Virus record (IMG/VR): IMGVR_UViG_3300009786_000105
Coordinates: 1-21,969 of that record
Direction: 5' to 3' (one strand)
DNA: 21,969 nt
Origin: a virus
Below are positions 3,352-20,833 of the stretch, piece after piece (the stretch's first letter is position 1; the number at the start of each line of letters is the position of its first letter). The position numbers and the translations under genes are program-made. The notes beneath the pieces were generated by a model. The model was given only the letters and a program-made list of their open reading frames with translations, was not told where the DNA came from and did no database searches.

Positions 3352-6300
3352 TTACTCGTTTCTTAAGAATTTTGCCGGTATAGAATCTGTCTTTTGTAAC
3401 GGATCTTCTTGTATAATTGTTGAACCATCATCTACACCATCTGTACTCTTATATAAGAATGTAGTATATGGCCAGTCAAGATATTCACCAATACTCTTAT
3501 TATAAACTTTAGTTGCTGTGGCATGTGTACTAAGTGATGTACCTGCTGTTCCTCTACGTAATCCACCTAATTTATTATTAGTTATATCTCTAGTACGATA
3601 AGTGATACGTTCTTCATCAATTATAATAATTCCAAAAACATTATTAGTTAAATCTGGTGCACCTAATACACTAGCATCATTAACATAAATGAATAAATCT
3701 TCTTTTCCAAGCGGAGAAGTTAATTCTGTTGTTTTGGTTTCGAGCTGTCTATAAATTGCTTTATTACCTTTCATATCATGGAAGATATTATATTCTAGTC
3801 TAGCTGGGACTAGATTTTCACTTGTTAATGTAACACTTATATAATCAGTAGCAGATATACTAAGTGACGTAAATTCAATTTTGCTAATATCCCCGTCTTT
3901 AAGTTTAAAATCTGATCCATAGAATTTACGTTGACCATTAACATGTACTATTAATTTTTCTGGTTTAGTAATATCTCTACCTAATTCGTATTCTGATACT
4001 AAAACTTGAGTTGTCACAACTTTATCAAATGGTGTAGCAGTTTCATCAAAACCCACCATATCAAAACCACTTGGTGTCTCAACAGTTACAATTGATTGAC
4101 CATCATAGACTTTGGTTACGCCATCAAGTCTACCAGTCTGATTAAAAGTTGTAACTGAAATATGATTATCTGCAGGTAATGAAACTGTAGATTTAATTGT
4201 TAATATATTTGTGCTTGGATCAATGGTATATTCAGCATCTGTTCTTATAAAAATCTTTATTTTTTCTTCTGGATATGGAGGTGTTGCTAATATTACGCTA
4301 CGTGATGAACTACCATCTGTTGTTGTAAATGTATAATCAGCACCTAGTGTTAATTTTATATCATCTTTATAAACAGCCAATTCATTGTCTGCGATACTAC
4401 TAACAGAAGTATCAGTTGTTTGAAATAAAGTATAAATTGTTGTTGATCCATCTGAATCAAATTCAAATCCTTCAGGCGGTCTTAATCTTAATCCATTCAA
4501 TTCAACAATAGCGAGATCTGAATTACTACCCGATAAATCATTAGTTAAAGCATAATCATAACTTGAATTATCAGTTGAAATATTTTGTGTTATAGGATTA
4601 TTATGCATTATAGATAATGATGCATTAAATTCATAATAAATTGTTAATGCACTATCTTGTTCGTTATCTTCAAAACCTAAAACATCTATAGCGATATAAT
4701 CTGTTGCAGTTACAGCTTGTTCTTTCTTAATTAATATCTTTGTTTCAAAACCATATGTAGAATTATCCCAGGTGCTTGCACTATCATAATTGTCTATGCT
4801 ATAGTTTGATGTAATACGTTTACCATTAATATAAATTACAACATCTCTTATTTCTTCATGCTTAACAGGAACAATGATATGTACTTCATTGTTGTCTTGT
4901 ATATAATCGGCTGGACTATAACTTTGTTGCCATAATTGATTACCGCCGCCAATACCATATGCAGTAATTCCAATTACATCATTTGTTGAGGCACGGAAAT
5001 CAGTAGCTGAGCTAACAAGTGTTATAGTTTTACCTAACCAATCTACAGTAAAATCTACAGTAGCGGTTTCGCCAACATTATTAAACCTTAAACTTTTACC
5101 TGTGGTAAGGTTGAATACTCTTAATTCAAAAGGATCATCTAATAAAGTACTAAAACTATGAATCATAGTTAATCCGTCCCACTGGAAGAATGATGTTTTC
5201 TCAGTAAAACAAAGTCCTTTATTAAGATAGTCTGCACCAGGTCTTGTGAGAACTGTAAGATTTAATGTATCAAATATTGCTCCTGGCAAAAATTCTTCTG
5301 GTGCATGACTGCTATAAGTGTCTATAAATACACCGCCTCCAACATTAATATCTGTGCTTAATGTTCCAAGATATGAATTTGTAAATGCACTACTTTGATA
5401 AATGGTATCTAAAATTACATCACTATATGTAGGTTTACCCTCAGGACCAAAGTCTAAGTTGTCGTATGGATTAATATCAAAGTTACCAACATTGAATCCA
5501 GTATTTTGACTAAACGTTGGGCTTGTTACTTTTACTCCCGGATAATCTATTCCGGATATTAATAATCCTAAGTCAATACCTGGCATGTCGCTAGTAGGAG
5601 CATATAATCCAGCAGTTCGTTCTATACCTGTTAATTCACTAGCATCAACTAATGTATAGTTTAATGGATTAAATGTTGCTTCACTTAATGTAGAGCCATC
5701 ACCAGTAGATGCTTTATAAACTTTATTATTATAACGAACTAACTGATCAAGTGTATAAACTGTACTTGCGGCCCAATCAACTATTGAACTAGAATACTCA
5801 TATCTGTCAAATTTAATACTAGTTTTATAAGATCTAACACTACCAGGGCTACATACGGCTATAGCTGTTGCACCAGTTCCTCCGCCCTGAGATATTGTAA
5901 TAACTGGGGTAGAAGTATATCCAACTCCACTATTAGTAATTGTAATTGCGGTAACTGCACCAGCTGTATTAATAACAGCCACCATTGTTGCTTGAGTAGT
6001 GCAATCTCCTGTAATTGTAACTATTGGTTTACTAGTATAGCCACTACCACCGCTAATAACAGTTATTGAATCAATGGATAATGTAAAATTATTTTTCCAA
6101 TCTTTATAAGGTTGTGTTAACCAAATTGCATCGTCAAGATCGTAATATTCACCTGAACCTCTGACACCACCTAATTTATGTTGTGGGCTGACGTACTTGG
6201 CTAATGAAGTATTATATTGAGATGGCAAATCAAAGTCTGATGTGTCGCTGTTTGCTGTATCGACTCCAGTGTACTTTAAATTAAATTCTTTAATTTGTGT

Positions 6301-9300
6301 TCTGTATGGTTTAACTTCACTTAAATAACTTTCAATAAATGTTTGGTTATCATTTTGTAAATTAGTAAATGTTTTTAATTCACGTACAGTATGTTCAACA
6401 TCAATTAAACTTGTTTTCATTAAGAAGTCTGAGGTTTCTTGTTCGCTAAAAATATATTCAAATATTAATTTAATTCCCTCAATTCTGTGTGATGCTAAAT
6501 CATCAACGAATAATTCTTCATTAATTGCTTTAATAATTTGTCTTGTTTCTAATACTGGCTCCTCATCAAAATATTGTGCATCAAATACTTCTCTAGAGAA
6601 ACCATTATTGCTCACACTATAATCATGTAATGTAGACTTTATTTTTATAGTACCAGTTTGTAATCCGACCCGTTCCCAGGTACCGTTTGGTTTAAGTTCA
6701 TGTCGTTCCCATTTATTTTGGGCATTGGCTGTTACTTTAACAATAGTGCCGGCTGGAACATCAGTAACAGTTTCTAATGCAGATACAGTTGCAACTTCTC
6801 TAACAGGATTAATATTTTTATTATATCCAATCGCCCACCAATGTGTATATTCCCAATAATTGGGAGTTTTATAATTTTGTATTCTAGTAACTAGCGTTGT
6901 TGTTTTATCACTTTGTAATGTATAAATTGCCCAAAGTCCGCCATTACTGCCATCGGCCTCTACTAGATATCTATGTCCTGCACTTACTAATTCAAATTGT
7001 TGATATTCAAGTTCAATTTCGGTGGCTACTTTTGTATCCCAGGTATTACTAGTAATACTTGGTTCGTTTTCTTCGCTATCTAATAACTTAAATGTTTTCA
7101 TTTCAGTGATTGGATATATTGCTAGGTTTGAATTAGCTCTAGTGATATAATTTTTAAGGGCACTAAATCTATCTTTAAACATAGATTGCCTTGGTCTAAA
7201 TTGTACACCAACTTTATCTTGATCAGATAGTGTTATATCTGGAACTATGTTACCAGCTGAGTCAACGCCACAAAATGAATCTTGTAATTTACGATATACT
7301 CGATCGCTTAAAAATTCTGCAGGATCGCTGTCTTTAATTAATTCGTATTCTGCATGAATATTATTTTCTGTATTTTCTCTATCAAATTCAATATGTACAA
7401 CACTATCATTACTACTAACAAAAGATTGAGAATTATAAATTGCAAATGCATTTGATGCAATAGCACCTATATATGGAATACCACTTGATTTTGGATTTTC
7501 AATATATTGTGCAATAACAACAGGACTTAATGTTTTGCCATGAAATGTGTCAGCAACTTCTAAGTCTTTAACCCAGAAATAAAATTTTGTTTTAATTGAC
7601 CCATTTTCAATAACATCACTTAATTGTGTATAAGATGTGGTATTGTATGGCGTTCCTGTTTCTTCATAGTCTTCTGGTTGAACATCGCTTGATACCCATT
7701 GATAGATATCTGCGGTTGATCCTGTAAATAATTGACCTAGACGTTTTGCTTTATAATCTTCAGTATCTTGGTTGTAGTTTAAAAATCTAGTATTCGTAAC
7801 GTCCCACCAAATTCTTCCTACATGTTCTTGTCCCCAAACATCTCCATAGGTGTTTATAGATCCTTCGCTGTATCCTGCAGGATCTTCGGGTGTAATAATA
7901 TCAATATTTTCTCTAGCAACGCCTAAAATTTTACCTTGTAGTGGATCAATATAATCTAAATATGTTAATATATCATTATCACTTATATCATATAAAAAAC
8001 TAGAATCAAGTAAAGCAGTATTAACAGTTTTTGTTTGCTCTCTTTTAACAGACCAAGAACTACGGTATTCAGTATCATAAAATCTAACTATTCTACCCGA
8101 GTCTGTTAATGTAGTTGTATCATAACCTGGGCTACCAACTAATAATTTACCAGAAACATAGTCAACGCTTTTTCCATAATCATTTAGTGCTGTTACTTTA
8201 GTATCAGTTATTTGTTGTCCATAAACAAATTTACCAGGATTAATAAATGTGTCAGTGGTTGATTTTAAGTAATCAAATGTGTAAACTGCACCACTGGCCG
8301 TCTGAATGTCTTTAATTACAGTTGCACCAGCATCAAATTTAGTTTGTAAGGTTGCACCCATAGTTGCTATATCAAATGTAACGATTAAATTTGTTGCACC
8401 GCCAGGTGCACCAACAGCTATTCCTAACGCATTACTACTAACATCTAAACTGTGGCCAAATCTTGCAAATTGACGTGGAAATGGATTATACATTGTCTGC
8501 ATAAATGAGAATATAGTTAATCCTAAATCAGTTAATACTGATTCATTACCAGTTACCGGCCACACTATAAGTTTATTATTCAGTGCTGTTGTAACTAAAC
8601 TATCTAATGTTAAATGTAATTTATTGCTTGAATTACTAGCAGTAACATTTGGAATATTTGCATTATTAATATCAGTTACTACATTATCTAATGATGTTCC
8701 AGTAAAAGTAACATAGAAGTCATTAATTCTAATTCTCTGCCCTATAGTAACTGTTGGGTTCTCTACAGTTCCTGTAATTAATCCGTATACTCTAGATTTG
8801 TTTATAAATCTAGCTACACTTCCTGCATCATCTTTTATAATACCTTCTGTATTAGATTTAGTGTCTCCTGGGCAACCTGCGTATATAGAACAGTTATATG
8901 AACAAATTTTAACGTCATATCCAAATTCTGCATCTCCTACTACTGCACTAGATGATAAAATTTCTACTAATGACATATTATTAGTTTCAATATCAATAAA
9001 GTCACCAATTTTTATTCCAGATGCTGTTTTAAATGTAACTGTTGATCCACTATAAGTATAACCACCAGAATTAACTACATTATCATCTTCAAGTATTTTT
9101 TCATTAAGTAGTACCGTTGGTACTCCTGTTATAGCACTAGTTGTTGTATATGTAACAGTATCTAAACCTGAGTCGCCATAGTCAACAGTTTTTGTAAGGT
9201 GAAATCTTTGGCAGTCCCTATCATATACATATATTTCACCAACACCAAGTGCCGAGTCTCCACCAGCACCTTCTAAAGCACCAATAGTAACTTGTCTGCC

Positions 9301-12300
9301 ATCTGTTGTTGTGGCTAAACTATGACCAAAACGCATAGGATCACTTGTTGGGTTGCTGATTGTTGCAAATAAACTAAAATAGTCAGTACTATTAATACTT
9401 GCAACTGCACTAGATGCCGGTGCAGTAGTAAATGTAATTACTTTTGTTCCTGAATCATATGTATAATCATAATGTGGTCTTTGTAAAACATCATCTAATC
9501 TAACCTGGAATGCTTCTATAGATGTAGCCTGTTTTAATGTTGCAAGGCTAAAATCTACAGATGACCCATCAAAAGTTGTAATTGTTGATGTTGATAATCT
9601 TTTAATTTTAATTGGCAATCCTGCGGCTGGTGCAGTAACAAAAGTAATAGTTTTTAATGCTGTTGAGTATGACCACTGAGTTGTAAGAGTTTGTATAACA
9701 TTGTTTACAACAACAGAGAGTTCATCAGTTGAGTCTACATCAACTAATCCAGTAATATCAAATTCTCTAGTCGATCCATCACCAGTAAATCTTTGCAGTT
9801 GGTCTTCGTATTCATTTAATTGGTATCCATATACTTTATCTATACCTGGTGCACCAACCCATATTACTCTTGAGTTTTGACTTATAGCAACACTATAACC
9901 AAAGTCACTCATTGTTGAACTACTTCTTCCTGTAGGTACCGTTAATAATTGATAATCTTGAAATACTTCTGAATTAGGTAATTGTCGAATAATAACTGCA
10001 AAACCTTCTTCACTTTGTGATAATCGAGCACCTGTTATATGCCATTTATTATCACTACTACGTACAACAGTTCCAAACCCAGAAATTCCAGTTGCACCAC
10101 ATGTTAAATTTTCGGAGTGACTAAGTGTAGTAGCGGTATCACCTTCAACATATACATCTACAACACCTGTTCCAGCATCTGGTGATCCTATTAATGCTAC
10201 CTTTCCATTTTTAGATTGGCTTACACTAGATCCAAATTTTCCATTTGCTACGGCTGAATATGGATCAATATTAGTAGTATTTGCACTAGTAAATGGTTGT
10301 ATTTTTTCTAGTGTAGCCCATTGTCCTGAATTGTATTCTTGTACCCATATTTTTTCGCCTGTAACCAGTTCAGTTACATAAGATAAATCAGCAACATCAC
10401 TTGCTTGAGTTACTTTTGCTGTTTTTAAAATAAAAACAATACCTATATCAGTCTGTGTTAATGTATTATTCAATCCTTCAGGGAATGAAAAATTAACTGT
10501 TATTTGACTTAAATTATTCACACTTGCAACTTTAAATGCACCATCTAACTCTGTTTTAAAATGTTTAATTATAAAAATATCATTTTTAACAAGCTCGTGC
10601 TTGCCATCAAATGTAAATGTAGTGGTCTCATCTAAATTATCTACCATTGCAATTAATTCAGCTTCTTGCAAACTAGCTCTATAAACATTCCAGGTATAAC
10701 GATTATCTTTAGCTATCCATATTTTAGAACCTTCTGTAATTATATCTAGCTTATTAACTATTTCAGAAAAGTCATCAAGATTAAAACTCTTGACTTCAAC
10801 GTCATCAAAATGAACAAATCCAGCATCTGGCAAACTTTGATCATTATTAATAAAATCTGTAGTAGGCAGTATTGCTGTGGTTGTAATATTATAACTTGAT
10901 TTATAAATGTCTGTAATAAAAGTATTTTGATCTGCTGTGGCGTTGTCTAAATCCTCAATTATTTTTATAGTTGATGGGTTACCGGTAGAACTAGACGCAT
11001 TTAATTTTACTTCAAAATAACTTCTATTTTCACTCGCACCGTAGTTGCCTAATTTTATTGCCCAGTTTTCGTGTATGGTATAGTCACTAAGTTCTTTAGA
11101 TAATTTAGAATTTTTAAATATATCAAGTGCCTGTGTTGTTCCTTTGGTTCCAATGAAGTTACTATAGATACCCATTTGACTAATGTCATTTAGATTTAAT
11201 CCTTCCATATAATCACGAGTTTTAAATCCAACTAATCCAAAGCCAAGTTGATCAGCATCTGATTCTAAATTAGCAAGAGTTTTATTATAAAAACCTTCAC
11301 TTTCATTATTTTTCAAATATATATTTGGAATCATACCTTTTTTAATTTGATCGTATTCTGTTTCTACCCATTTAGTCACATCAAATTTTTCTGATGGTGG
11401 AACCGGTTCTACGGCACTATAAAATTTACTTTTACGTAAAACTATTTCACCTTTATAATATTTTATATTCGAAGCCCACTCGTTAACTGTAGATGAGTCA
11501 TTTCTAAATAAGCCTGGAGAATTAAGTGTTCCATCCCAACTATCAGTATTATATCCAACAAGTTTTAATCGTGCCTGTCTTTGCCCTGTAGAAGGATTAT
11601 AAAGTAAGTCATTAAACACACTAGTATTATCAAATAACAATACATGTTCATAACTTGTAAACTTCAATTCTATGAATGATATAGCGTCTTCGTTGGTTGA
11701 AGTAATTGTAAATTTATTGTCAATTCTGTCCCAGATTAAATCTTCATTATTAATTTTTACTTTATTTTGATTTAATACAAAATCATTAGCTGTTTGTCCT
11801 AATATAGGTGCAACTATTGCATTAGTTCTTTCAATTTTAAGTTTATTTGCATTTGGGTTTAAGTTAATAATACTTCCGTCAATCCACCCTTGTTGACTCC
11901 AGTATAATAATTCATTAATCATTTGTGACCAATTTAAGAAATATTCATTTTCTCGGTCATCAAAAATAAAACCTTTAGATTCTAACCATTTTCCATATGA
12001 ATTTAAAAAGTCGCATGCAGTACCAACATTAGTAAAGGTATATCCATATGGTACTAATTTTTCTGTTGTTGAAAAATCTTTAGACAGACTGACTTGAGTG
12101 GATCCAACATTAAATGAAGTAACATTGCCATTAGGTATACTTTCAAATATAGTAAAATATTGATTTGTTTTGCCTAGTCCAAATATAGAGAATCCACCCT
12201 CAACTTTTTGTACAATTACACTACTATAAGCTACTGTATCAAAGATTTCATTATTATATGTTAATATTTCATAACTTTCATCTGGTAATAATAAACTAGT

Positions 12301-15300
12301 GTTCAAGCTATTTGTGGATGTTTTTTCTGTAAAAACTTTAAGGTATTGTTTATCAGTATAGCTTGCTGTTCTATATGATAATTGTATAGTAGAATTACTT
12401 AAAAGATTTTTAATATGTGTGTTTGAAGAAATACCTTGTACACGGCTATGACCATCAATCCAATTTATATAACTATGTTTTGGTGTATCTTCTCCACATA
12501 ATTCAATAGAGGTAGTTAACCTGTCTCGACTATCATATAGATAATGCCCTACTGAAGTACTATATCGATATCTATCTATATCTACATTTAAAGTAAAATA
12601 TTTTGCAGGTTGTGTTTGTGCCAGTAATTTTTGTATGGCAAATGCCCAACTACTACTTTTCCGCCAAGCATTTTCAGCTGGACCTACATCTCCAGCATCC
12701 CACGATTTTTTCAAACTTAATTCGTCGTAGTTTTTAACTAATACATCAAAGATTGATTTAGTTGCACCTTCGTCATCTGTGGGTTTAATTGTTTCTAAAC
12801 CTGGACGCACAAAGTCTGTTAGATAATATACACCTGCAGGATCAACAACTTTACCTAAAGCAAGATCGCCCCATAAAATTTCGTTGTCACTAGTATAAGG
12901 TGCTGGACCATATGCATTTTCCCACCATACTGGTTTCTTTGTAAAACCTAACATTTCCCATGGTCGACTGCCTGGATCATCAGTATCATAAAAGAGAATG
13001 TGATTACCTCTTGTGTGACCTAATAATAATGAGTCATCAACTCTGTTTGTTGCAGAACTATAATTCCATGTTTTCTTTTCTGAAGCACTATATGTTTGTG
13101 CTTTAAAATCTATTCTGTTTTGTGATACCCAATCTAAGAATGATGGTGCTAATAAGTTAATACATTCTTCTGTTGTATAATCTGTTGTTCTAAATTTACC
13201 TGGTATAACATCATACCAATGCATTGGTGGAGCAATATTAACTTTTAAATTATTATAGATACGTTTTTCAAATTCAAGTAAAATATCATCTCGTGAATCA
13301 CCATATGACATTGTTCGTGATCCATCATGCCCTACAATTACAGTATGTGCAGTTGTATAAGTTGTATCTGTAACTATTTCTGGAAGATAACTATCATATA
13401 AACCTAACTTAGTTGGTGTTGCTGGCAAAAAGTTACCGGCAGTATTTCCATATTCTCTAATTTTTAATACATCACCAGATGATAATATTTTTAATATTAT
13501 TACACGTGGACCATCTGTCGCCACAGTATAATCAGTATCTTTTACTAATAATATGTCATTTACATATATTGATAAAGCAAGAAAGTTAGCTTTAGTAAAA
13601 TCATAAGTTTGTACAGTATCAAATATATCATCATCAGTTGGTGTTATAGTATATTTGGTTTCTGTAAACACTTCACCCATTGGTAATGTATCAGTCCAAT
13701 AAAATGGTGAGTCTGGATTCATTCCTCTGTTTATATCATTCAATGCACCATCTAATTGTTTTGCAGTTGTATCACCTGTGTATTCTTTAGTTGATATTGC
13801 ATCTAACAATCTTTTCTTAAATTTTTCATATTCGTTTCTAGAAAAGTCTAATGCATCAAAGAAATTAATATTTGAATCTTTACAGAATGTTGCCATAAAT
13901 TGCATAGGAGCACTATGCTCAACAATTTGTACACCATAAGATTCATAATTGCCTAGGTTTCTAATATTATTACTACCAAGTATAGTACCGGATAGTTTTG
14001 GCGTTCTTTGTGCCATACCAACAAAATGATTTCTAATTGCACCCAGAGTAATTGTATCAAATGATTTATTAACAGCATTGTTTGCTAAGTTTAAAGGAAC
14101 CTGATAATAGGCACCTTCTTTACTAACTTCTTTACTATTAATGAATACCTGTACGATATCATTTTTAGTTAGTGCCGATGCAAATGTAATTGATGTTGTT
14201 CCGTTAGTTGTTCTAGTACCAGTTGAAGATGTTATAGTAGTACCGATTGTAGATGTTATAGTATAAGTAGAACTATCTTTAAATTTATTATTAATATCAA
14301 CATATACAGCATTATCATCTGTTGCATCATATTTTATATCACATTTTAATGTACTGGTAGTTGTTAATGTGGTTCCATCGATCTTAAAAGTAAAAACTTG
14401 TGGTTGTTTTGAATTAGTTTTTGCTTTTTGCCAACCACTTAAATCTGAATAAGTTGTTTTATCAGTATATTGTCTAGCAAATCCAATAGCAATATTTTTA
14501 GTAGAACTAGTTACATCAACTGTGGAAATAAAAGTATCCTTATAAAAATTATTATCAAATACAATATCTCCAACATTACTTACAGATTCATATTTTAATC
14601 TTAATCCTAAGATAGAATCAATATTGCCAGTACCGGGTGAATAGCTAAAAAGTTTTGTACCTACAAAACTACTACTTGGATATGCAGTTACATCAGATAA
14701 ACTTTTACCGGCAGAATCAAAAATATCAAATAATGGTTGTTGATTCACTGCGGTCTTCTGTTGTCCTTGTATCCAATCAGTTCCGTTATATCTAAATGAT
14801 TTACCTTGTAAAGTTACACCACTCTTACAATAAACAGAGGTATCTGTATTAATTAAATCAGATTCTAATACTAGATTGATAATCGGAACACTAGTTTGTC
14901 CTGGATCCATACTAATACCAACCGGATCTATTATTTCAACTTTATAAACTTTATTCTTAACAGTTGTATCATCATCATTAGTAAATATAATTCTTGACCC
15001 ATCTAATAATTTAAATCCATCAACAGTATATCCTAGAGATCCATGTACATTACTAAGTGCATCAACCTGTGCTGTATCTATAATATCAACTGGTGCAATA
15101 CCACTTGTACCAAAATCATATAATCTTAATCCTGATTTAAATTCAATAACTGGTCGTTTAGCTCGGTTAGCTTGATTAAGTACAGCCGGAACATTATTAA
15201 TTTCCGCTGATTGATTAATAATATCAATATGAACCCAACGATTTGATCTACTCCATGGGTTTTGATCTGGACTTGCTCTGTTTATTGTAAAATAATCTAG

Positions 15301-16980
15301 AGCAGTTGGAGCATTTAGCGAACTATCATATGCTACACTATCAAAACCAACATCATCAAACGGTTTAGATTCACTAATTGTAAATGCTTCTGGTGTTTGA
15401 AAATCTGTTAAGGCTAATAATTTAATAGACGAACCACAGCCTTCAACATAAAATTCATTATCTTGATAACTTGTTGGTTCTGTTGGACCACGGAATATTA
15501 TTTTTAGTCCGTTATTAAGTTTAACACCAGTTGGTGAGGTATATTGTATTTTACCAAGTATATCTGCAGTAACATCAAGTGTTTGTGCGGCATCACCCTC
15601 AACTAATCTAATAACACCAAATTTAGTTGCATCAGTTCCATCTTGATAATATAACGTATCACTAGTGGCTGTAATTAATGGCTGTTGCTGGAAAAAACCT
15701 TCTGCATCTTTATAAAAATGTTCATTATTAAATGTAGTTCCAGATTTAATGTAAACCTTAGTATTATTTGGTACTTCTTGAATTCTACTAAGTGATATAA
15801 ATTGATTATCTGTAGAATCATCACTAAGATATTTAATTTTCCATATTGAATAACGTTGACTTTGTAAAGTTATTTCAACCTCTTTATCCCATACATCATC
15901 GTCATTATCATAAGTTACTCCATCAAATTGTTCTTGTGTACGCCACCCCGATTCTGCACCATCGCCAGGATTTTGATTTGTAAATATTATTGTTTTTCCA
16001 TCAAGATCCTTAACACCATCGATTTCAATATCTTGTGCTATATCAATCGCAGAATCAAATGGTGTTACCCCAAAACCATTCATTACCTTGCCGTCGAAGG
16101 TAACGACGTCCTCGTCAAAACTAGTTAAGAATCTAAAATCTTCATTGGTTGTTCCCTCTGCTGTTTTAACATATCTGTTATTAATTTGATCAAATCTTAA
16201 ATCAGTGACTAAATCTACATCATCGGTTTTAGTCATAGTTAAAAATTGATTTTGTGCATCAGCATCAGGTACTTTAAATGTAATAACACCGTTATCATCA
16301 CCATTGTTTTCAACACCAAATACTTCTCTAGAACTTTGATTAGGTTGCCCTGGAACCGTTCCTGATGTGCCAGAATCAGTTTGGATATAAAAAGGATTTC
16401 CGGTTTGATTCACTGTGAATGTATAATTTCCGCCACGCATTAACGAAACGGTTGGGTTATCACCTTTTATCGTATCAAATGTGTACCCATCAGTACCACG
16501 TGTAATAGTATAAGCATCTTGCGAAACTAGATCAGTTAATTTAATATCAACAGAATCGGCACCGGCTGGTGTCCAATAATATTGACTAAAGTTAATAAAT
16601 TTATCATAGTCAATTAATGGGTCCCAACTATAATATTCAGATGTAAATAATCTATTGTGTTTATTAGTATTAGCACTATGAGTCTTAAGTGCATCAACCA
16701 TACCTGGGTAGGTTATAAGATCTTCTGTTTCATTTGTATTTGTTTTTTTATAACAAACAGTTGGTTCAAGTTGATAATTTTGTCTTGTTGTGTCGGGTTC
16801 TCTAACATAAGCATCGGCAGCCGATACACCTAGACCAGTTTTTAATCCAATGTATCCTTCTACTCTTTTTAATTGAGAAGGCTGTACTAACTGTTCCAGA
16901 GTAGCATTTAGAAACTTTTCATTCGTGGTTGTTCTAAATATCTCGGGTAAAAGATCTATTGTCTTTGTTCTAATTGCCAT
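3352..16980 (-). CDS. Giant mosaic baseplate/tail structural protein (gp7/gpI position)
   Basis: One uninterrupted frame of 4542 residues. The start MAIRTKTIDLLPEIFRTTTN recalls the LLP-type opening of P2 gpI/gp7-like wedge proteins. Next come SYYSWDPLIDYDKF-like sequence (about 113-135), a cupredoxin-like domain (165-265), two related modules around KSG at 412 and 719, and a conserved core with GHDGSRTMSYGDSRDD (about 1215-1235) and WWENAYGPAPY (1352-1362). Later come an aromatic module W1835-W1871, a seven-repeat FG-GAP propeller (2240-2975) with inserts, GxGY repeats (3635-3712), a second aromatic module from W3736, and a fibre-type C-terminus with IDEERITYRTRD and RRGTAGT (about 4440-4480). 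The core segments resemble giant virion proteins of marine T4-like phages. It follows 6 by 18 bases; AGGT lies 13 bases before the ATG. No signal peptide or membrane segment. Its role in wedge assembly and host contact is inferred from position and modules. Confidence 0.88.
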   Translation of the reverse strand: MAIRTKTIDLLPEIFRTTTNEKFLNATLEQLVQPSQLKRVEGYIGLKTGLGVSAADAYVREPDTTRQNYQLEPTVCYKKTNTNETEDLITYPGMVDALKTHSANTNKHNRLFTSEYYSWDPLIDYDKFINFSQYYWTPAGADSVDIKLTDLVSQDAYTITRGTDGYTFDTIKGDNPTVSLMRGGNYTFTVNQTGNPFYIQTDSGTSGTVPGQPNQSSREVFGVENNGDDNGVITFKVPDADAQNQFLTMTKTDDVDLVTDLRFDQINNRYVKTAEGTTNEDFRFLTSFDEDVVTFDGKVMNGFGVTPFDSAIDIAQDIEIDGVKDLDGKTIIFTNQNPGDGAESGWRTQEQFDGVTYDNDDDVWDKEVEITLQSQRYSIWKIKYLSDDSTDNQFISLSRIQEVPNNTKVYIKSGTTFNNEHFYKDAEGFFQQQPLITATSDTLYYQDGTDATKFGVIRLVEGDAAQTLDVTADILGKIQYTSPTGVKLNNGLKIIFRGPTEPTSYQDNEFYVEGCGSSIKLLALTDFQTPEAFTISESKPFDDVGFDSVAYDSSLNAPTALDYFTINRASPDQNPWSRSNRWVHIDIINQSAEINNVPAVLNQANRAKRPVIEFKSGLRLYDFGTSGIAPVDIIDTAQVDALSNVHGSLGYTVDGFKLLDGSRIIFTNDDDTTVKNKVYKVEIIDPVGISMDPGQTSVPIINLVLESDLINTDTSVYCKSGVTLQGKSFRYNGTDWIQGQQKTAVNQQPLFDIFDSAGKSLSDVTAYPSSSFVGTKLFSYSPGTGNIDSILGLRLKYESVSNVGDIVFDNNFYKDTFISTVDVTSSTKNIAIGFARQYTDKTTYSDLSGWQKAKTNSKQPQVFTFKIDGTTLTTTSTLKCDIKYDATDDNAVYVDINNKFKDSSTYTITSTIGTTITSSTGTRTTNGTTSITFASALTKNDIVQVFINSKEVSKEGAYYQVPLNLANNAVNKSFDTITLGAIRNHFVGMAQRTPKLSGTILGSNNIRNLGNYESYGVQIVEHSAPMQFMATFCKDSNINFFDALDFSRNEYEKFKKRLLDAISTKEYTGDTTAKQLDGALNDINRGMNPDSPFYWTDTLPMGEVFTETKYTITPTDDDIFDTVQTYDFTKANFLALSIYVNDILLVKDTDYTVATDGPRVIILKILSSGDVLKIREYGNTAGNFLPATPTKLGLYDSYLPEIVTDTTYTTAHTVIVGHDGSRTMSYGDSRDDILLEFEKRIYNNLKVNIAPPMHWYDVIPGKFRTTDYTTEECINLLAPSFLDWVSQNRIDFKAQTYSASEKKTWNYSSATNRVDDSLLLGHTRGNHILFYDTDDPGSRPWEMLGFTKKPVWWENAYGPAPYTSDNEILWGDLALGKVVDPAGVYYLTDFVRPGLETIKPTDDEGATKSIFDVLVKNYDELSLKKSWDAGDVGPAENAWRKSSSWAFAIQKLLAQTQPAKYFTLNVDIDRYRYSTSVGHYLYDSRDRLTTSIELCGEDTPKHSYINWIDGHSRVQGISSNTHIKNLLSNSTIQLSYRTASYTDKQYLKVFTEKTSTNSLNTSLLLPDESYEILTYNNEIFDTVAYSSVIVQKVEGGFSIFGLGKTNQYFTIFESIPNGNVTSFNVGSTQVSLSKDFSTTEKLVPYGYTFTNVGTACDFLNSYGKWLESKGFIFDDRENEYFLNWSQMINELLYWSQQGWIDGSIINLNPNANKLKIERTNAIVAPILGQTANDFVLNQNKVKINNEDLIWDRIDNKFTITSTNEDAISFIELKFTSYEHVLLFDNTSVFNDLLYNPSTGQRQARLKLVGYNTDSWDGTLNSPGLFRNDSSTVNEWASNIKYYKGEIVLRKSKFYSAVEPVPPSEKFDVTKWVETEYDQIKKGMIPNIYLKNNESEGFYNKTLANLESDADQLGFGLVGFKTRDYMEGLNLNDISQMGIYSNFIGTKGTTQALDIFKNSKLSKELSDYTIHENWAIKLGNYGASENRSYFEVKLNASSSTGNPSTIKIIEDLDNATADQNTFITDIYKSSYNITTTAILPTTDFINNDQSLPDAGFVHFDDVEVKSFNLDDFSEIVNKLDIITEGSKIWIAKDNRYTWNVYRASLQEAELIAMVDNLDETTTFTFDGKHELVKNDIFIIKHFKTELDGAFKVASVNNLSQITVNFSFPEGLNNTLTQTDIGIVFILKTAKVTQASDVADLSYVTELVTGEKIWVQEYNSGQWATLEKIQPFTSANTTNIDPYSAVANGKFGSSVSQSKNGKVALIGSPDAGTGVVDVYVEGDTATTLSHSENLTCGATGISGFGTVVRSSDNKWHITGARLSQSEEGFAVIIRQLPNSEVFQDYQLLTVPTGRSSSTMSDFGYSVAISQNSRVIWVGAPGIDKVYGYQLNEYEDQLQRFTGDGSTREFDITGLVDVDSTDELSVVVNNVIQTLTTQWSYSTALKTITFVTAPAAGLPIKIKRLSTSTITTFDGSSVDFSLATLKQATSIEAFQVRLDDVLQRPHYDYTYDSGTKVITFTTAPASSAVASINSTDYFSLFATISNPTSDPMRFGHSLATTTDGRQVTIGALEGAGGDSALGVGEIYVYDRDCQRFHLTKTVDYGDSGLDTVTYTTTSAITGVPTVLLNEKILEDDNVVNSGGYTYSGSTVTFKTASGIKIGDFIDIETNNMSLVEILSSSAVVGDAEFGYDVKICSYNCSIYAGCPGDTKSNTEGIIKDDAGSVARFINKSRVYGLITGTVENPTVTIGQRIRINDFYVTFTGTSLDNVVTDINNANIPNVTASNSSNKLHLTLDSLVTTALNNKLIVWPVTGNESVLTDLGLTIFSFMQTMYNPFPRQFARFGHSLDVSSNALGIAVGAPGGATNLIVTFDIATMGATLQTKFDAGATVIKDIQTASGAVYTFDYLKSTTDTFINPGKFVYGQQITDTKVTALNDYGKSVDYVSGKLLVGSPGYDTTTLTDSGRIVRFYDTEYRSSWSVKREQTKTVNTALLDSSFLYDISDNDILTYLDYIDPLQGKILGVARENIDIITPEDPAGYSEGSINTYGDVWGQEHVGRIWWDVTNTRFLNYNQDTEDYKAKRLGQLFTGSTADIYQWVSSDVQPEDYEETGTPYNTTSYTQLSDVIENGSIKTKFYFWVKDLEVADTFHGKTLSPVVIAQYIENPKSSGIPYIGAIASNAFAIYNSQSFVSSNDSVVHIEFDRENTENNIHAEYELIKDSDPAEFLSDRVYRKLQDSFCGVDSAGNIVPDITLSDQDKVGVQFRPRQSMFKDRFSALKNYITRANSNLAIYPITEMKTFKLLDSEENEPSITSNTWDTKVATEIELEYQQFELVSAGHRYLVEADGSNGGLWAIYTLQSDKTTTLVTRIQNYKTPNYWEYTHWWAIGYNKNINPVREVATVSALETVTDVPAGTIVKVTANAQNKWERHELKPNGTWERVGLQTGTIKIKSTLHDYSVSNNGFSREVFDAQYFDEEPVLETRQIIKAINEELFVDDLASHRIEGIKLIFEYIFSEQETSDFLMKTSLIDVEHTVRELKTFTNLQNDNQTFIESYLSEVKPYRTQIKEFNLKYTGVDTANSDTSDFDLPSQYNTSLAKYVSPQHKLGGVRGSGEYYDLDDAIWLTQPYKDWKNNFTLSIDSITVISGGSGYTSKPIVTITGDCTTQATMVAVINTAGAVTAITITNSGVGYTSTPVITISQGGGTGATAIAVCSPGSVRSYKTSIKFDRYEYSSSIVDWAASTVYTLDQLVRYNNKVYKASTGDGSTLSEATFNPLNYTLVDASELTGIERTAGLYAPTSDMPGIDLGLLISGIDYPGVKVTSPTFSQNTGFNVGNFDINPYDNLDFGPEGKPTYSDVILDTIYQSSAFTNSYLGTLSTDINVGGGVFIDTYSSHAPEEFLPGAIFDTLNLTVLTRPGADYLNKGLCFTEKTSFFQWDGLTMIHSFSTLLDDPFELRVFNLTTGKSLRFNNVGETATVDFTVDWLGKTITLVSSATDFRASTNDVIGITAYGIGGGNQLWQQSYSPADYIQDNNEVHIIVPVKHEEIRDVVIYINGKRITSNYSIDNYDSASTWDNSTYGFETKILIKKEQAVTATDYIAIDVLGFEDNEQDSALTIYYEFNASLSIMHNNPITQNISTDNSSYDYALTNDLSGSNSDLAIVELNGLRLRPPEGFEFDSDGSTTIYTLFQTTDTSVSSIADNELAVYKDDIKLTLGADYTFTTTDGSSSRSVILATPPYPEEKIKIFIRTDAEYTIDPSTNILTIKSTVSLPADNHISVTTFNQTGRLDGVTKVYDGQSIVTVETPSGFDMVGFDETATPFDKVVTTQVLVSEYELGRDITKPEKLIVHVNGQRKFYGSDFKLKDGDISKIEFTSLSISATDYISVTLTSENLVPARLEYNIFHDMKGNKAIYRQLETKTTELTSPLGKEDLFIYVNDASVLGAPDLTNNVFGIIIIDEERITYRTRDITNNKLGGLRRGTAGTSLSTHATATKVYNKSIGEYLDWPYTTFLYKSTDGVDDGSTIIQEDPLQKTDSIPAKFLRNE
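5845..6078 (-). repeat. Two GxGY beta repeats inside the giant protein
   Basis: Residues about 3635-3712 hold two units 41 residues apart: GGSGYTSKPIVTITG (G3644-Y3648) and GVGYTSTPVITISQGGG (G3685-Y3688). Each is followed by a Gly/Thr/Ala-rich strand region. This motif is common in beta-rich fibre proteins of marine phages. It probably forms a rigid spacer and is followed directly by an aromatic binding-like module. Confidence 0.7.
8056..10263 (-). repeat. Seven FG-GAP-like repeats: predicted beta-propeller within the giant protein
   Basis: Seven units share the pattern (F/Y)G-x-x-V/L ... G(A/S/C)P-type turn ... hydrophobic strand. They begin at F2249, F2302, F2360, F2551, F2686, F2841 and Y2935. 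Clear examples are FGYSVAISQNSRVIWVGAPG, FGHSLDVSSNALGIAVGAPG and YGKSVDYVSGKLLVGSPG. Seven is the blade number of the integrin-alpha propeller. The acidic calcium loop (DxDxDG) of many FG-GAP repeats is absent. Extra domains sit between repeats 3 and 4 (about 2395-2534, two GDGST/DGSS modules), 4 and 5 (about 2600-2662) and 5 and 6 (about 2744-2794). Confidence 0.75.
14700..15990 (-). repeat. Two diverged copies of a fibre-type module in the giant protein
   Basis: The sequence VYIKSGTTFNNEHFYKDAEG (KSG at 412-414) is echoed by VYCKSGVTLQGKSFRYNGTD (KSG at 719-721), 307 residues later. Each is preceded by DGKTIIFTN or DGSRIIFTN and followed by QQQPLI or NQQPLFD. The copies are diverged at the DNA level, so this is an old protein-level duplication and not a recent DNA repeat. 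Confidence 0.65.
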
Positions 16981-16998: not shown

Positions 16999-19900
16999 TT
17001 AAGTAATTGACTGTCTTAAAACAGTAGATGTTAATGCTGTGACTACTTCAACGTCAGTCACACCTGCCGCATTCATAAAAATTTCATCTGGTGAAGATTT
17101 AACTTCATATAAACCACCAAATGTCTTAGTTGGATCAGTTGGTACAATAACAACTGAACTAATAATATCTCCTAATTCACGATGTAAAAAAGCACTTAGT
17201 TCTGAAAAGTAAAATGTATCACCAAAGTCCCAATTATCTAGACTAAAATATTGATTTAGTGATTCTACTAATCTACTTTTAATTTCACCTTCACTTACTA
17301 CAACTCCAATGTTTTTAATTACTTTAAACGAACCTTGTAATTCTATTGGCGCTTTAGGACCAAACATAGGTTTAAATTTAACACTATTCATTACTATATT
17401 ATCTGATGCCATTTTATATTGATTTAATTTTGTATATGCTAAACTTAATTCATCTATAGTCGGACGAATAGGTTCAGTAACTGTACCCGTTGAATCAACA
17501 ATATAATTTGTAAAATCTGTAGAATAAGTATTGGTAACTAGATATAAATCAATAATGTTAGTGTTTGCAGGATCAATTCTGCGTGTATTTGAACTATTAT
17601 GTGAATATTGAAAATTAAAATCTTGTCTTCCGGTACTCTTGGTATAGTTTGTTGTCGCGGTTAATGTATATGTTGTACCAATAACAGATAATTTATAAAA
17701 TTTAGTATCAGTGGTGGTATAAAATATTTGGCTGTCAGCATATTCTGTTTTTGCTGCCTCTGTTAATACTAATGTTGCATATAGTGTATTAACTGTACCT
17801 GATGCTAATGGAATAAATCTTTCTAGATTATCAAAGTCAGTTGTACGTTCGAAAAATACCAATTTACTTACTACATTAACTGTTGGATCAACAAGGGTTG
17901 TGAAAAAGTCTGGGTCATCAGCTACATTATCACTATCTTTATCTGCATAGCTTATTAATACCTTAAAGTTATCTATAAAACCGTCTTGTTCAACTTCTTG
18001 CCCAACAATATCTAATACTACATCAGTATCTAATGCATTATTTGAATCTGGCTTTGAATTTGATCTTAAAATATTAATGCTATCATTTATTGTTTTTCCT
18101 GTTTTTGAATCGTAAACATTATCAGCGTCATCGTAAATAAATCTATTTTCTATTACACTTGCAAAATAATATTCTAATGATCTATATTTTGTTGTATAAC
18201 TAATACCGTCAGTAGTAAATTGTGCTAACCAACTTGCATCAGTATTAACCTCAAGCGTAGTTTGTGCGTTGCCTGTTGAAAAATCAGCATCTTGATTTAA
18301 ATTATTGGTACTAATAATATACCAAGTACCAGTAAGATGATCGTAACCTACACCAAAGTCTCTTAAAGCCTCTACCTGAGCAATAAGATCAGTTTCTAAA
18401 GTACTGGGTAAATCTGTTATTAGTCTAGGTATCACTTCAGTCGGTATTGCTGTAGATGGAATATATTCATTTAAGGTTACAGGACCACTGCCATCATCTA
18501 AATTACCAGTTCCAAAGTTAGTACCGTCTAATGTTAATGCTGTTACGGTTGTCCATATGACTAGCTTTTCACCTTGTTTAGATGGAGTACCTGACACTAA
18601 TCTATTATTTGCATCAAAAAAGTAACCAACAGGTGGTTCAAATTTAATTAAACCATTTTCTCGTATATGTTTGTTGTTACTTGATGTGAATTCACTAATA
18701 GGCACAGGCGAACCTGATGCAGTATTTTTAAAGTAACCAGTTACAGAATTAACTATAGCGGTACTTTGTTTCCACTCAATACCACTTAAAGTTGGTCTAG
18801 TAAACTGATCATAATAAAAATGTACCATTTGTCTTGCTTTAAGAACAGGTTCTAATTGTGTTGTAATCATTGTGGCTATGTCATTGCTATCAATAAAACT
18901 AAATGTAAAAGTCGGAGTTTTTGAATCTCTATACATCATTCCGTCACTAGCAAAGATATTAGTGGATGAATATTTTCCTGTTGGATCTAATAAGTCTAGT
19001 TGTCTATTAACACCAACGCCGGTTCTAGCTATGGCCTTAGATTTTAGAATTGATGTAAATTCAGTAAAAGGAAAGTTATTGTAATCTTCACCATTTACCA
19101 TACGGTTTTGTGTGTAAAATCTAGCCGGAGCCCTTTCTTTAATTTCAGTTAATGTTTCACGTGTTTTAGCATTTGATACGGCCTGTTGTAAACCTAATGT
19201 AAATGTAACAGTTTCTATCCTGCCAGATCTACTAGCATACGAAATTGGTATTTGAATACTTTGCATTTCGTTTGTATTAACAACATATTGTAATCCATTG
19301 CCTGATCTAACATATACACGATAGTCACCTATGGGTATTTTTGAAAAAGTGCCATCACCAAATATTATATCAACCTGGTCGTTAGATCTACTTTGAACTG
19401 CATAGACTTCTCTAGTTTCTTCTGCTGATGCTGTAGTTTCATCAGTATCAACAGCAAATATATTTTCAACCTGTTTCCATTCAGTTAATGTTGCGTCATT
19501 ATCTGTTAATTCGTATAACCAAACATCTTCATTATTAATACCATCAACATCAATATTAACTATTCTATTACTAATTCTATCTGCAATATTAAAATCTTGA
19601 CTTAATAATTCGCCTTGTTTAAAATTAAAGAAGTATCCAGTATTTGCACCACCAAAGCCAAGTTGGTCATTACGATATAAAACATTAAATGCTCCACCGG
19701 GTTGTGGTGCTGGTTCATAAAGATATGTTTTACCAACACTACTTGCACTAGTAATTTCAAATGACATTGAGCCACCATTAATAGATGTTGAAAAACTTGC
19801 AATTGGTAATGATGTGGCTAAAGTATTCAAAGTATATTCATCTGTACTAATGCCTAGTAAGGATTGGTTATTACCAGAACTGCCATATTTTTGACTACTA

Positions 19901-20394
19901 ATCATGGCGGCATTCATTATTGCGTTAAATTGTTCAAACCAGTCTGTATTTGTAACATCATTCCAGTTAACTGTAATTGCTTGTAAGCTATTACTATTAA
20001 AATCTAAGACATCTTCTGTTGTGCTGATTGATAGTATTTTTAGGAATCCTTGAGCATTTATATTACGTTTTGGTGTATAGCCAATTAAATTAGCTAACTT
20101 AATTACTGAATCTCTACGTTCTGCGGTATCCATAAAGTTTTCGCGAGTATTCATGTCGTTGCGGAAGGCTAAACCTTGACCCATGAATGACATAAGATCC
20201 ATTAATGCAATAAATTCACTTGATTCAGTGAAATCATTAAATGATTCAGGATAATATACTCTAAGATAATCAACGAAACTTTTTCTTATAGTTTCATAAT
20301 CATAACTTTGAAAGTCTGCTTCTTTATATGTGCGATAGATTCTTTTCCAATCCTCAGCGCCAAATATTGATGTTTGTCTAGTTGTCTTAGCCAT
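16999..20394 (-). CDS. 6: Baseplate wedge protein, gp6-like (J family)
   Basis: This 1131-residue protein is homologous to T4 gp6, the central wedge subunit that pairs with gp7 and ties adjacent wedges together around the hub. Conserved parts visible: the N-terminal region with DYLRVYYPESFNDF and FIALMDLMSFMGQGLAFRND (about 43-80), then AERRDSVIKLANLIGYTPK (about 92-110); the J-type motif VDIIFGDGTFSKIPIGDYRV (about 338-357); and the C-terminal block WDFGDTFYFSELSAFLHREL with FGGLYEVKSSPDEIF (about 1053-1108). T4 gp6 is 660 residues, so the extra length lies mainly between about 400 and 950. It lies 64 bases after gene 25, its wedge partner, and 18 bases before the giant gene. Leader: late promoter candidate at 20424-20431 and AGGT 13 bases before the ATG. 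Similarity at both ends makes the assignment firm. Confidence 0.93.
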   Translation of the reverse strand: MAKTTRQTSIFGAEDWKRIYRTYKEADFQSYDYETIRKSFVDYLRVYYPESFNDFTESSEFIALMDLMSFMGQGLAFRNDMNTRENFMDTAERRDSVIKLANLIGYTPKRNINAQGFLKILSISTTEDVLDFNSNSLQAITVNWNDVTNTDWFEQFNAIMNAAMISSQKYGSSGNNQSLLGISTDEYTLNTLATSLPIASFSTSINGGSMSFEITSASSVGKTYLYEPAPQPGGAFNVLYRNDQLGFGGANTGYFFNFKQGELLSQDFNIADRISNRIVNIDVDGINNEDVWLYELTDNDATLTEWKQVENIFAVDTDETTASAEETREVYAVQSRSNDQVDIIFGDGTFSKIPIGDYRVYVRSGNGLQYVVNTNEMQSIQIPISYASRSGRIETVTFTLGLQQAVSNAKTRETLTEIKERAPARFYTQNRMVNGEDYNNFPFTEFTSILKSKAIARTGVGVNRQLDLLDPTGKYSSTNIFASDGMMYRDSKTPTFTFSFIDSNDIATMITTQLEPVLKARQMVHFYYDQFTRPTLSGIEWKQSTAIVNSVTGYFKNTASGSPVPISEFTSSNNKHIRENGLIKFEPPVGYFFDANNRLVSGTPSKQGEKLVIWTTVTALTLDGTNFGTGNLDDGSGPVTLNEYIPSTAIPTEVIPRLITDLPSTLETDLIAQVEALRDFGVGYDHLTGTWYIISTNNLNQDADFSTGNAQTTLEVNTDASWLAQFTTDGISYTTKYRSLEYYFASVIENRFIYDDADNVYDSKTGKTINDSINILRSNSKPDSNNALDTDVVLDIVGQEVEQDGFIDNFKVLISYADKDSDNVADDPDFFTTLVDPTVNVVSKLVFFERTTDFDNLERFIPLASGTVNTLYATLVLTEAAKTEYADSQIFYTTTDTKFYKLSVIGTTYTLTATTNYTKSTGRQDFNFQYSHNSSNTRRIDPANTNIIDLYLVTNTYSTDFTNYIVDSTGTVTEPIRPTIDELSLAYTKLNQYKMASDNIVMNSVKFKPMFGPKAPIELQGSFKVIKNIGVVVSEGEIKSRLVESLNQYFSLDNWDFGDTFYFSELSAFLHRELGDIISSVVIVPTDPTKTFGGLYEVKSSPDEIFMNAAGVTDVEVVTALTSTVLRQSIT

Positions 20395-20458: not shown

Positions 20459-20833
20459 TTATAATAAAGCGATTGAATTATTATCAGGATTCAAAAATAC
20501 ACTAAGAAGTTGTGCTTCGGGTATGCCAACAAAGAATACTGAAATTTCTAATAGTATGCCAGAGTCTCTAGCATAAATTGCAATATTTTCTATTTTCATT
20601 CTAGGATCTTGTTCTATAGTTCTTCGGACTTCTTTTTCAATTTCATCTACGGTTTCGTCTGTAAGATTTTCAAATAGCAAGGACCATATAGTAGTACCAT
20701 AGTTAGGTTTATGTAATTTTTCACCTCTGCGAATCATCAGGCTATTAAGAAGATCGCGTATTAATAAATCTCGGTCTTCTAAGCGAAATTTTCGACTTTC
20801 GTCTATTGTATTAAATCCGAAAAATGTTGCCAT
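20459..20833 (-). CDS. 25: Baseplate wedge protein, gp25-like
   Basis: A 124-residue protein of the GPW/gp25 family (T4 gp25 is 132 residues). This is the small wedge subunit that contacts the sheath and joins gp6 and gp53 in the wedge core. Family features: an N-terminal stretch leading to LIRDLLNSLMIRRGEKLHKP (about 28-47), the NYGTTIWSLLFENLTDE segment (about 48-64), a helix with EIEKEVRRTIEQDPRMKIENI (about 69-89; the DPR matches the conserved xPR turn), and a C-terminal beta part. The gene lies 15 bases after the hub-type gene and directly upstream of 6; gp25-gp6 adjacency matches W-J in P2. There is no Shine-Dalgarno sequence before the ATG; a late promoter motif ends only seven bases away. 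Old reports of lysozyme activity for gp25 are not supported by any catalytic motif visible here. Confidence 0.93.
   Translation of the reverse strand: MATFFGFNTIDESRKFRLEDRDLLIRDLLNSLMIRRGEKLHKPNYGTTIWSLLFENLTDETVDEIEKEVRRTIEQDPRMKIENIAIYARDSGILLEISVFFVGIPEAQLLSVFLNPDNNSIALL

Follow-up and report, generated by a model that had tools for sequence, protein, structure and literature searches.

In integrin alpha, DxDxDGxxD calcium loops occupy the A-B turns of blades 4 to 7 of the propeller. Some integrins also carry an alpha-I domain that enters the propeller between blades 2 and 3, a general parallel to the inserts described below. In phage T7, the Phage_T7_tail module anchors the fibre to the tail. 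The nozzle protein of the same phage, gp12 (tail tubular protein B), is a seven-bladed tail propeller in which a domain projects from a loop of blade 3, and it has a dock for fibres (PMC6702177). FG-GAP propellers are already known in viruses, including a jumbo-phage 'hemagglutinin' and proteins of algal viruses. Thus, the FG-GAP 'hemagglutinin' gp213 of Sinorhizobium phage AP-J-162 has been matched to human integrin (PMC11242549), and a role in host attachment has been proposed for the FG-GAP proteins of algal viruses (PMC11467894). Finally, CBB_236, whose number adjoins that of the gp6-like CBB_237, appears among the listed virion structural proteins (PMC5259590) and is a candidate counterpart only of the giant protein analysed here.

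We analysed a stretch of viral DNA of 21,969 nucleotides (IMG/VR virus record IMGVR_UViG_3300009786_000105, positions 1 to 21,969; called the window hereafter), all the features of which given below lie on the minus strand. An intact ORF (3352-16980) codes for a protein of 4542 residues, whose scaffold is matched by the virion structural protein profile phrog_10938 (E 1.1e-297), a scaffold family of jumbo-phage virion proteins. The N-terminal scaffold encompasses residues 1-2100 (10681-16980), of which residues 1-150 and ~600-2080 are common to phages PA5oct, Atu_ph07, 121Q, SCTP-2 and Vibrio phage 2.275.O. The C-terminal scaffold, residues 2995-3760 (5701-7998), is also common to jumbo isolates. 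Homologues of the baseplate wedge subunits gp25 (124 aa; 20459-20833) and gp6 (1131 aa; 16999-20394) are encoded upstream, which puts the giant gene in the gp7 position downstream of gp6. Because the gp6 and gp25 genes adjoin it, we assign the giant protein to a baseplate-wedge setting, and synteny suggests that it is located on the wedge arm. The gp6-like subunit is far longer than T4 gp6 (1983-nt gene, ~660 aa), and the wedge of this clade is therefore enlarged beyond the giant protein too. Homology of the scaffold with T4 gp7 was rejected at the sensitivity of hhalign and PDB searches: no relation was detected by profile (hhalign probabilities of 0.3% and 0.1%), no solved structure in the PDB matched the scaffold, and gene order alone resembles gp6-gp7.

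Additional features were observed in the window. The 450-aa protein encoded at 1261-2613 matches Peptidase_G2 (autoproteolytic chaperone type) above the cut-off as well as a tail-fibre family, and is a candidate fibre. In the giant protein, residues 3736-3757 (5710-5775) match CBM_5_12 (chitin-binding type) below threshold (20.9 bits, cut-off 26.2); the gene adjoining the giant-protein orthologue of Vibrio phage 2.275.O is likewise annotated CBM 5/12. Residues 3644-3692 (5905-6051) harbour two GGSGYTSxP-type repeats.

The flanks of the propeller region align, at ~20-40% identity over conserved stretches, with the giant proteins of PA5oct, Atu_ph07, 121Q, SCTP-2 and Vibrio phage 2.275.O. In PA5oct, Atu_ph07 and 121Q the giant gene follows a gene annotated as gp6-like or wedge subunit, as it does in the window, and for the PA5oct orthologue detection by ESI-MS/MS is noted. 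We compared the segments between the scaffold positions equivalent to residues 2100 and 3001, a site of 901 residues in the window. Its length is ~131 residues in 121Q, ~190 in the Vibrio phage, ~289 in PA5oct, ~428 in SCTP-2 and ~1451 in Atu_ph07, and FG-GAP profiles gave no match at this site in any of these five isolates. According to these alignments, the propeller occupies a variable site of a conserved scaffold in a clade-specific manner, because the jumbo isolates that share the scaffold carry other sequence there. Part of the site in Atu_ph07 gp180 is occupied by the GGSGYTSxP-type repeat. The ~430-residue segment of SCTP-2 (residues ~2090-2360; 16165-16977 of the SCTP-2 locus) looks LamG-like by eye, an identity that no Pfam or PDB match supports.

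The region of interest, a predicted seven-unit FG-GAP propeller of the integrin-alpha type with inserts, spans residues 2209-2985 (8026-10356). It starts with a beta hairpin (KIWVQEY..WATLEKI, residues 2209-2228; 10297-10356) that resembles the C-D pair of a blade. Then come blade units 1 (F2249, GSP; 10105-10236) and 2 (F2302, GAR; 9943-10077), strands A-C of units 3 (F2360, GAP; 9799-9903), 4 (F2551, GAL; 9199-9330) and 5 (F2686, GCP; 8800-8925), and units 6 (F2841, GAP; 8209-8460) and 7 (Y2935, GSP; 8026-8178). Unit 3 gives the best single match to Pfam FG-GAP_2, and unit 6 has a B-C loop of 38 residues, partly modelled with low confidence. The FG/YG anchors listed in the preliminary description were all found exactly at these seven positions. 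Among 100 relatives, the glycine is kept in 98-100% at each of them, and the preceding F/Y in most.

Scanned alone, the region matches FG-GAP_2 (PF14312) at 27.2 bits, for a cut-off of 23. The match is weak (13.4 bits) when the whole 4542-aa protein is scanned with Pfam, and the classic FG-GAP family (PF01839) appeared only once, below the cut-off. FG-GAP_2 was matched in all ten relatives of the first alignment (best 3e-20), and ten relatives scanned singly scored 38-57 bits each. When the window units are scanned singly, just two of them, 3 and 1, score with FG-GAP_2 (18.7 and 13.5 bits, both below the cut-off). The profiles of the units match one another. Family profiles were needed because single units and the full protein score below the cut-off. 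Using hhalign profiles built from a 17-sequence family alignment, with seven segments of the inserts and flanks as controls, 15 of the 21 unit pairs exceeded 50% probability, and none of the 49 unit-control pairs did.

With an alignment of 100 sequences, AlphaFold2 modelled residues 2205-2992 as a single confident domain (pLDDT 90.2, pTM 0.91); the model obtained with the 17-sequence alignment was poor (pLDDT 52), and its fold was not used for searching. Foldseek searches of the PDB returned integrin alpha propellers at all of ranks 1 to 10 (E 5.6e-12 to 1e-9), so that the model agrees with the single seven-unit propeller of integrin-alpha type claimed initially. The integrin alignments extend over ~800 columns, with target-normalised TM scores of up to 0.65; a TM of ~0.64, normalised by an integrin propeller of ~450 residues, would require most of the ring to be superposed. 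Among viral models (BFVD), the matches include giant-virus FG-GAP proteins, the Atu_ph07 'hemagglutinin' and a virion protein of cyanophage S-TIM5. Coevolution analysis (~63 effective sequences) supported the hairpins within blades and not the closure of the ring. Blade strands A-B-C-D were assigned by DSSP on the predicted structure. The A-B loops have just 2-5 residues in all 100 relatives, and DxDxDGxxD calcium loops are absent from the A-B turns of blades 4-7 in every one of them, which bears out the earlier remark that the acidic loops are missing. Altogether, the architecture is very probably that of a calcium-free seven-bladed FG-GAP propeller with inserts, as judged from the model.

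The preliminary description also held that three linkers carry whole extra domains, and inserts indeed fill the C-D loops of blades 3, 4 and 5. The loop of blade 3 harbours I1 (9595-9798) and I2 (9382-9594), followed by strand D (9355-9381). I3 (9001-9198) precedes strand D of blade 4 (8953-9000), and I4 (8512-8799) precedes that of blade 5 (8488-8511). I1 of the window matches Phage_T7_tail (PF03906) at 37.3 bits (cut-off 25.2), and the same family matches I1 at E<0.05 in 6 of 16 relatives. I1 and I2 are tandem homologues, with a probability of 96.5% between their profiles in hhalign, and I2 is thus likely to be of the Phage_T7_tail type as well. The I1/I2 profile also gives weak matches to tail adaptor, tail tubular protein B and depolymerase chains. 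Both of the GDGST modules announced earlier are present, although they stand in tandem within the single linker 3-4 rather than in separate linkers. A third, likewise small, beta module lies in linker 4-5, and linker 5-6 holds a module of a different, beta/alpha type (I4), for which we found no Pfam match with the window sequence and no PDB match. Further modules that look like I1/I2 (T7-tail) occur at residues ~4047-4353 of the giant protein (3922-4842; VVIYINGKRIT, ELAVYKDDIK, LIVHVNGQRKF), where the propeller-family profile gives weak matches to I1/I2 positions.

The C-D loops of blades 3, 4 and 5 are long in all 100 relatives (at least 139, 56 and 94 residues, respectively) and carry inserts, and those of blades 1, 2, 6 and 7 are short in all of them. 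In a standard propeller all C-D loops would share one face. Given this C-D position, the inserts of blades 3-5 probably project side by side from one face, in agreement with what had been proposed for them, as far as strand order and propeller geometry indicate. In about one-third of the 100 relatives, I1 and I2 are separated by another ~80 residues, which probably represent a third module of the tandem. A few relatives harbour additional domains of 57-79 aa, placed in blade 1 (B-C loop) or between blades (D-A loops 1-2, 2-3 or 3-4), which would sit on the face opposite the C-D inserts.

We then looked at the distribution of the propeller. The IMG/VR relatives are mostly proteins of ~4000-4950 aa, on contigs of up to 345 kb, and a profile of blades 4-7 retrieved 218 of them. 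The 80 nearest scaffold relatives all match the propeller profile wherever the contig covers it. In six long contigs (300-345 kb), FG-GAP_2 matches are confined to the giant ORF. Using tblastn, we found no propeller relative in cultured phages or in prokaryote genomes; the insert modules weakly match Methylophilales phage Melnitz and its close kin only, among cultured phages. Taking scaffold residues 1201-2100 as a yardstick of evolution rate, parts of the propeller are 31-46% identical where the scaffold is 52% identical (50-65% band), with I1/I2 the lowest at 31%. Within the protein, evolution is fastest in I1/I2 and blades 1-3. There is little difference in the 80-95% band, with 71-84% identity for propeller parts and 84% for the scaffold. 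This pattern fits an exposed part with changing partners, as far as sequence divergence can indicate, rather than the extreme variability of many receptor-binding tips.

Taken together, the data are best explained by a calcium-free decorated propeller in a wedge protein that serves as a docking platform, and we consider this explanation as a whole to be likely. The FG-GAP propeller, inserted at a variable site of a giant protein that is conserved in the baseplate wedge of jumbo myophages, would act on the wedge arm as a docking platform, rigid and shaped like a disc. The domains of blades 3-5 would protrude side by side from one face, with the tandem modules of blade 3 being of the T7 fibre-anchor type. 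The most likely task of the insert modules would be to attach a peripheral tail part specific to the lineage, such as a fibre or whisker, to the baseplate, and the opposite face of the propeller would stay free for a second contact. The T7_tail-type module is a lead towards docking and not proof, as the family is broad. That docking is the main function of the propeller is an evenly balanced proposition.

Alternatively, the propeller itself might be a receptor-binding head, whose D-A/B-C face binds a protein or glycan of the host surface, with the inserts as accessory binding modules. Among solved folds integrin alpha is the nearest, jumbo phages have stand-alone FG-GAP proteins annotated as 'hemagglutinin', and the lineage-specific domains of ~57-79 aa in the blade 1 B-C and the D-A loops decorate the presumed ligand face. 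Rapid evolution of I1/I2 and blades 1-3 would also be expected of a receptor-binding surface, but the propeller is not hypervariable, as seen in the 80-95% band. The calcium sites are absent, the T7_tail-type modules point to virion contacts, and the propeller is embedded in a scaffold protein of the wedge instead of having an adhesin gene of its own. We regard receptor binding by the propeller as possible but rather doubtful. In a bolder variant that seems less probable still, the wedge site might be an interchangeable socket that one large uncultured clade has filled with an integrin-type propeller decorated on one side, and this propeller would be the main host-recognition head; if true, the wedge itself, and not the fibres, would be in charge of recognition.

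A structural spacer that makes the wedge arm stiffer and wider and has no partner of its own would be consistent with the structural role of the T7 gp12 propeller and with the propeller-less relatives, which keep the flanking scaffold with as few as ~130 residues at the site. However, a mere spacer would have no need of inserts, and the insert sites are filled in every one of the 100 relatives, with the extra I1-I2 stretch in about one-third, which makes this possibility improbable. Finally, that FG motifs arose by chance in a string of independent beta-sandwiches without a closed propeller is hardly tenable, as the FG-GAP_2 matches, the unit profiles with clean controls, the anchors, AlphaFold and Foldseek all oppose it, even though just two of the seven window units score FG-GAP_2 alone, both below the cut-off.

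A literature search covering few subscription journals returned no paper on an FG-GAP propeller inside a baseplate wedge protein. In this system, an FG-GAP propeller is conserved within a core tail protein at more than 200 environmental phage loci, several of which lie on jumbo-sized contigs. The domain-insertion site that it marks in the baseplate wedge allows comparisons between isolates, and is a clear place to seek where fibres attach or the host is recognised in jumbo phages, as little is known of the structure of their tails.

Compared with known systems, the phage region has seven FG-GAP units like integrin alpha (alpha5, alphaV, alpha4, alphaIIb), which provides the best fold match in the PDB. 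However, their identity is ~10%, and the phage propeller has no beta-subunit partner and is part of a tail protein. It is devoid of calcium A-B loops and is therefore not classed as an integrin. Its inserts occupy the C-D loops of blades 3, 4 and 5, unlike the alpha-I domain.

Virus-encoded FG-GAP propellers are also found in giant and algal viruses (prasinovirus MntV1, mimivirus relatives), which yielded many BFVD fold matches. Those, however, belong to viruses of eukaryotes and are named as stand-alone or collagen-repeat proteins rather than parts of a baseplate wedge. Closer to our system, the Atu_ph07 'hemagglutinin' (BFVD match A0A2L0UZX4) is a propeller of a jumbo phage that shares the wedge scaffold. 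Like that of AP-J-162, it differs in being a separate protein (~375-409 aa), and its gene is >90 kb from the wedge gene, whose product gp180 has no FG-GAP at the site.

The phrog_10938 proteins (121Q gp582, PA5oct gp355, Atu_ph07 gp180 and SCTP-2 gp140) have a homologous scaffold, and those of 121Q, PA5oct and Atu_ph07 are encoded at the same place after gp6. In contrast with the window, the isolates have ~130-1450 residues of other sequence at the site, and no propeller. The nozzle of cyanophage A4 (9k09_U) was found both by fold (TM 0.13) and by the I1/I2 profile. Lastly, T7 gp12 is, like the window propeller, a phage tail propeller with emerging domains, but it forms the nozzle of a short-tailed phage, and no sequence relation between the blades was found. 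By analogy, it provides the nearest working precedent for a propeller of the docking type.
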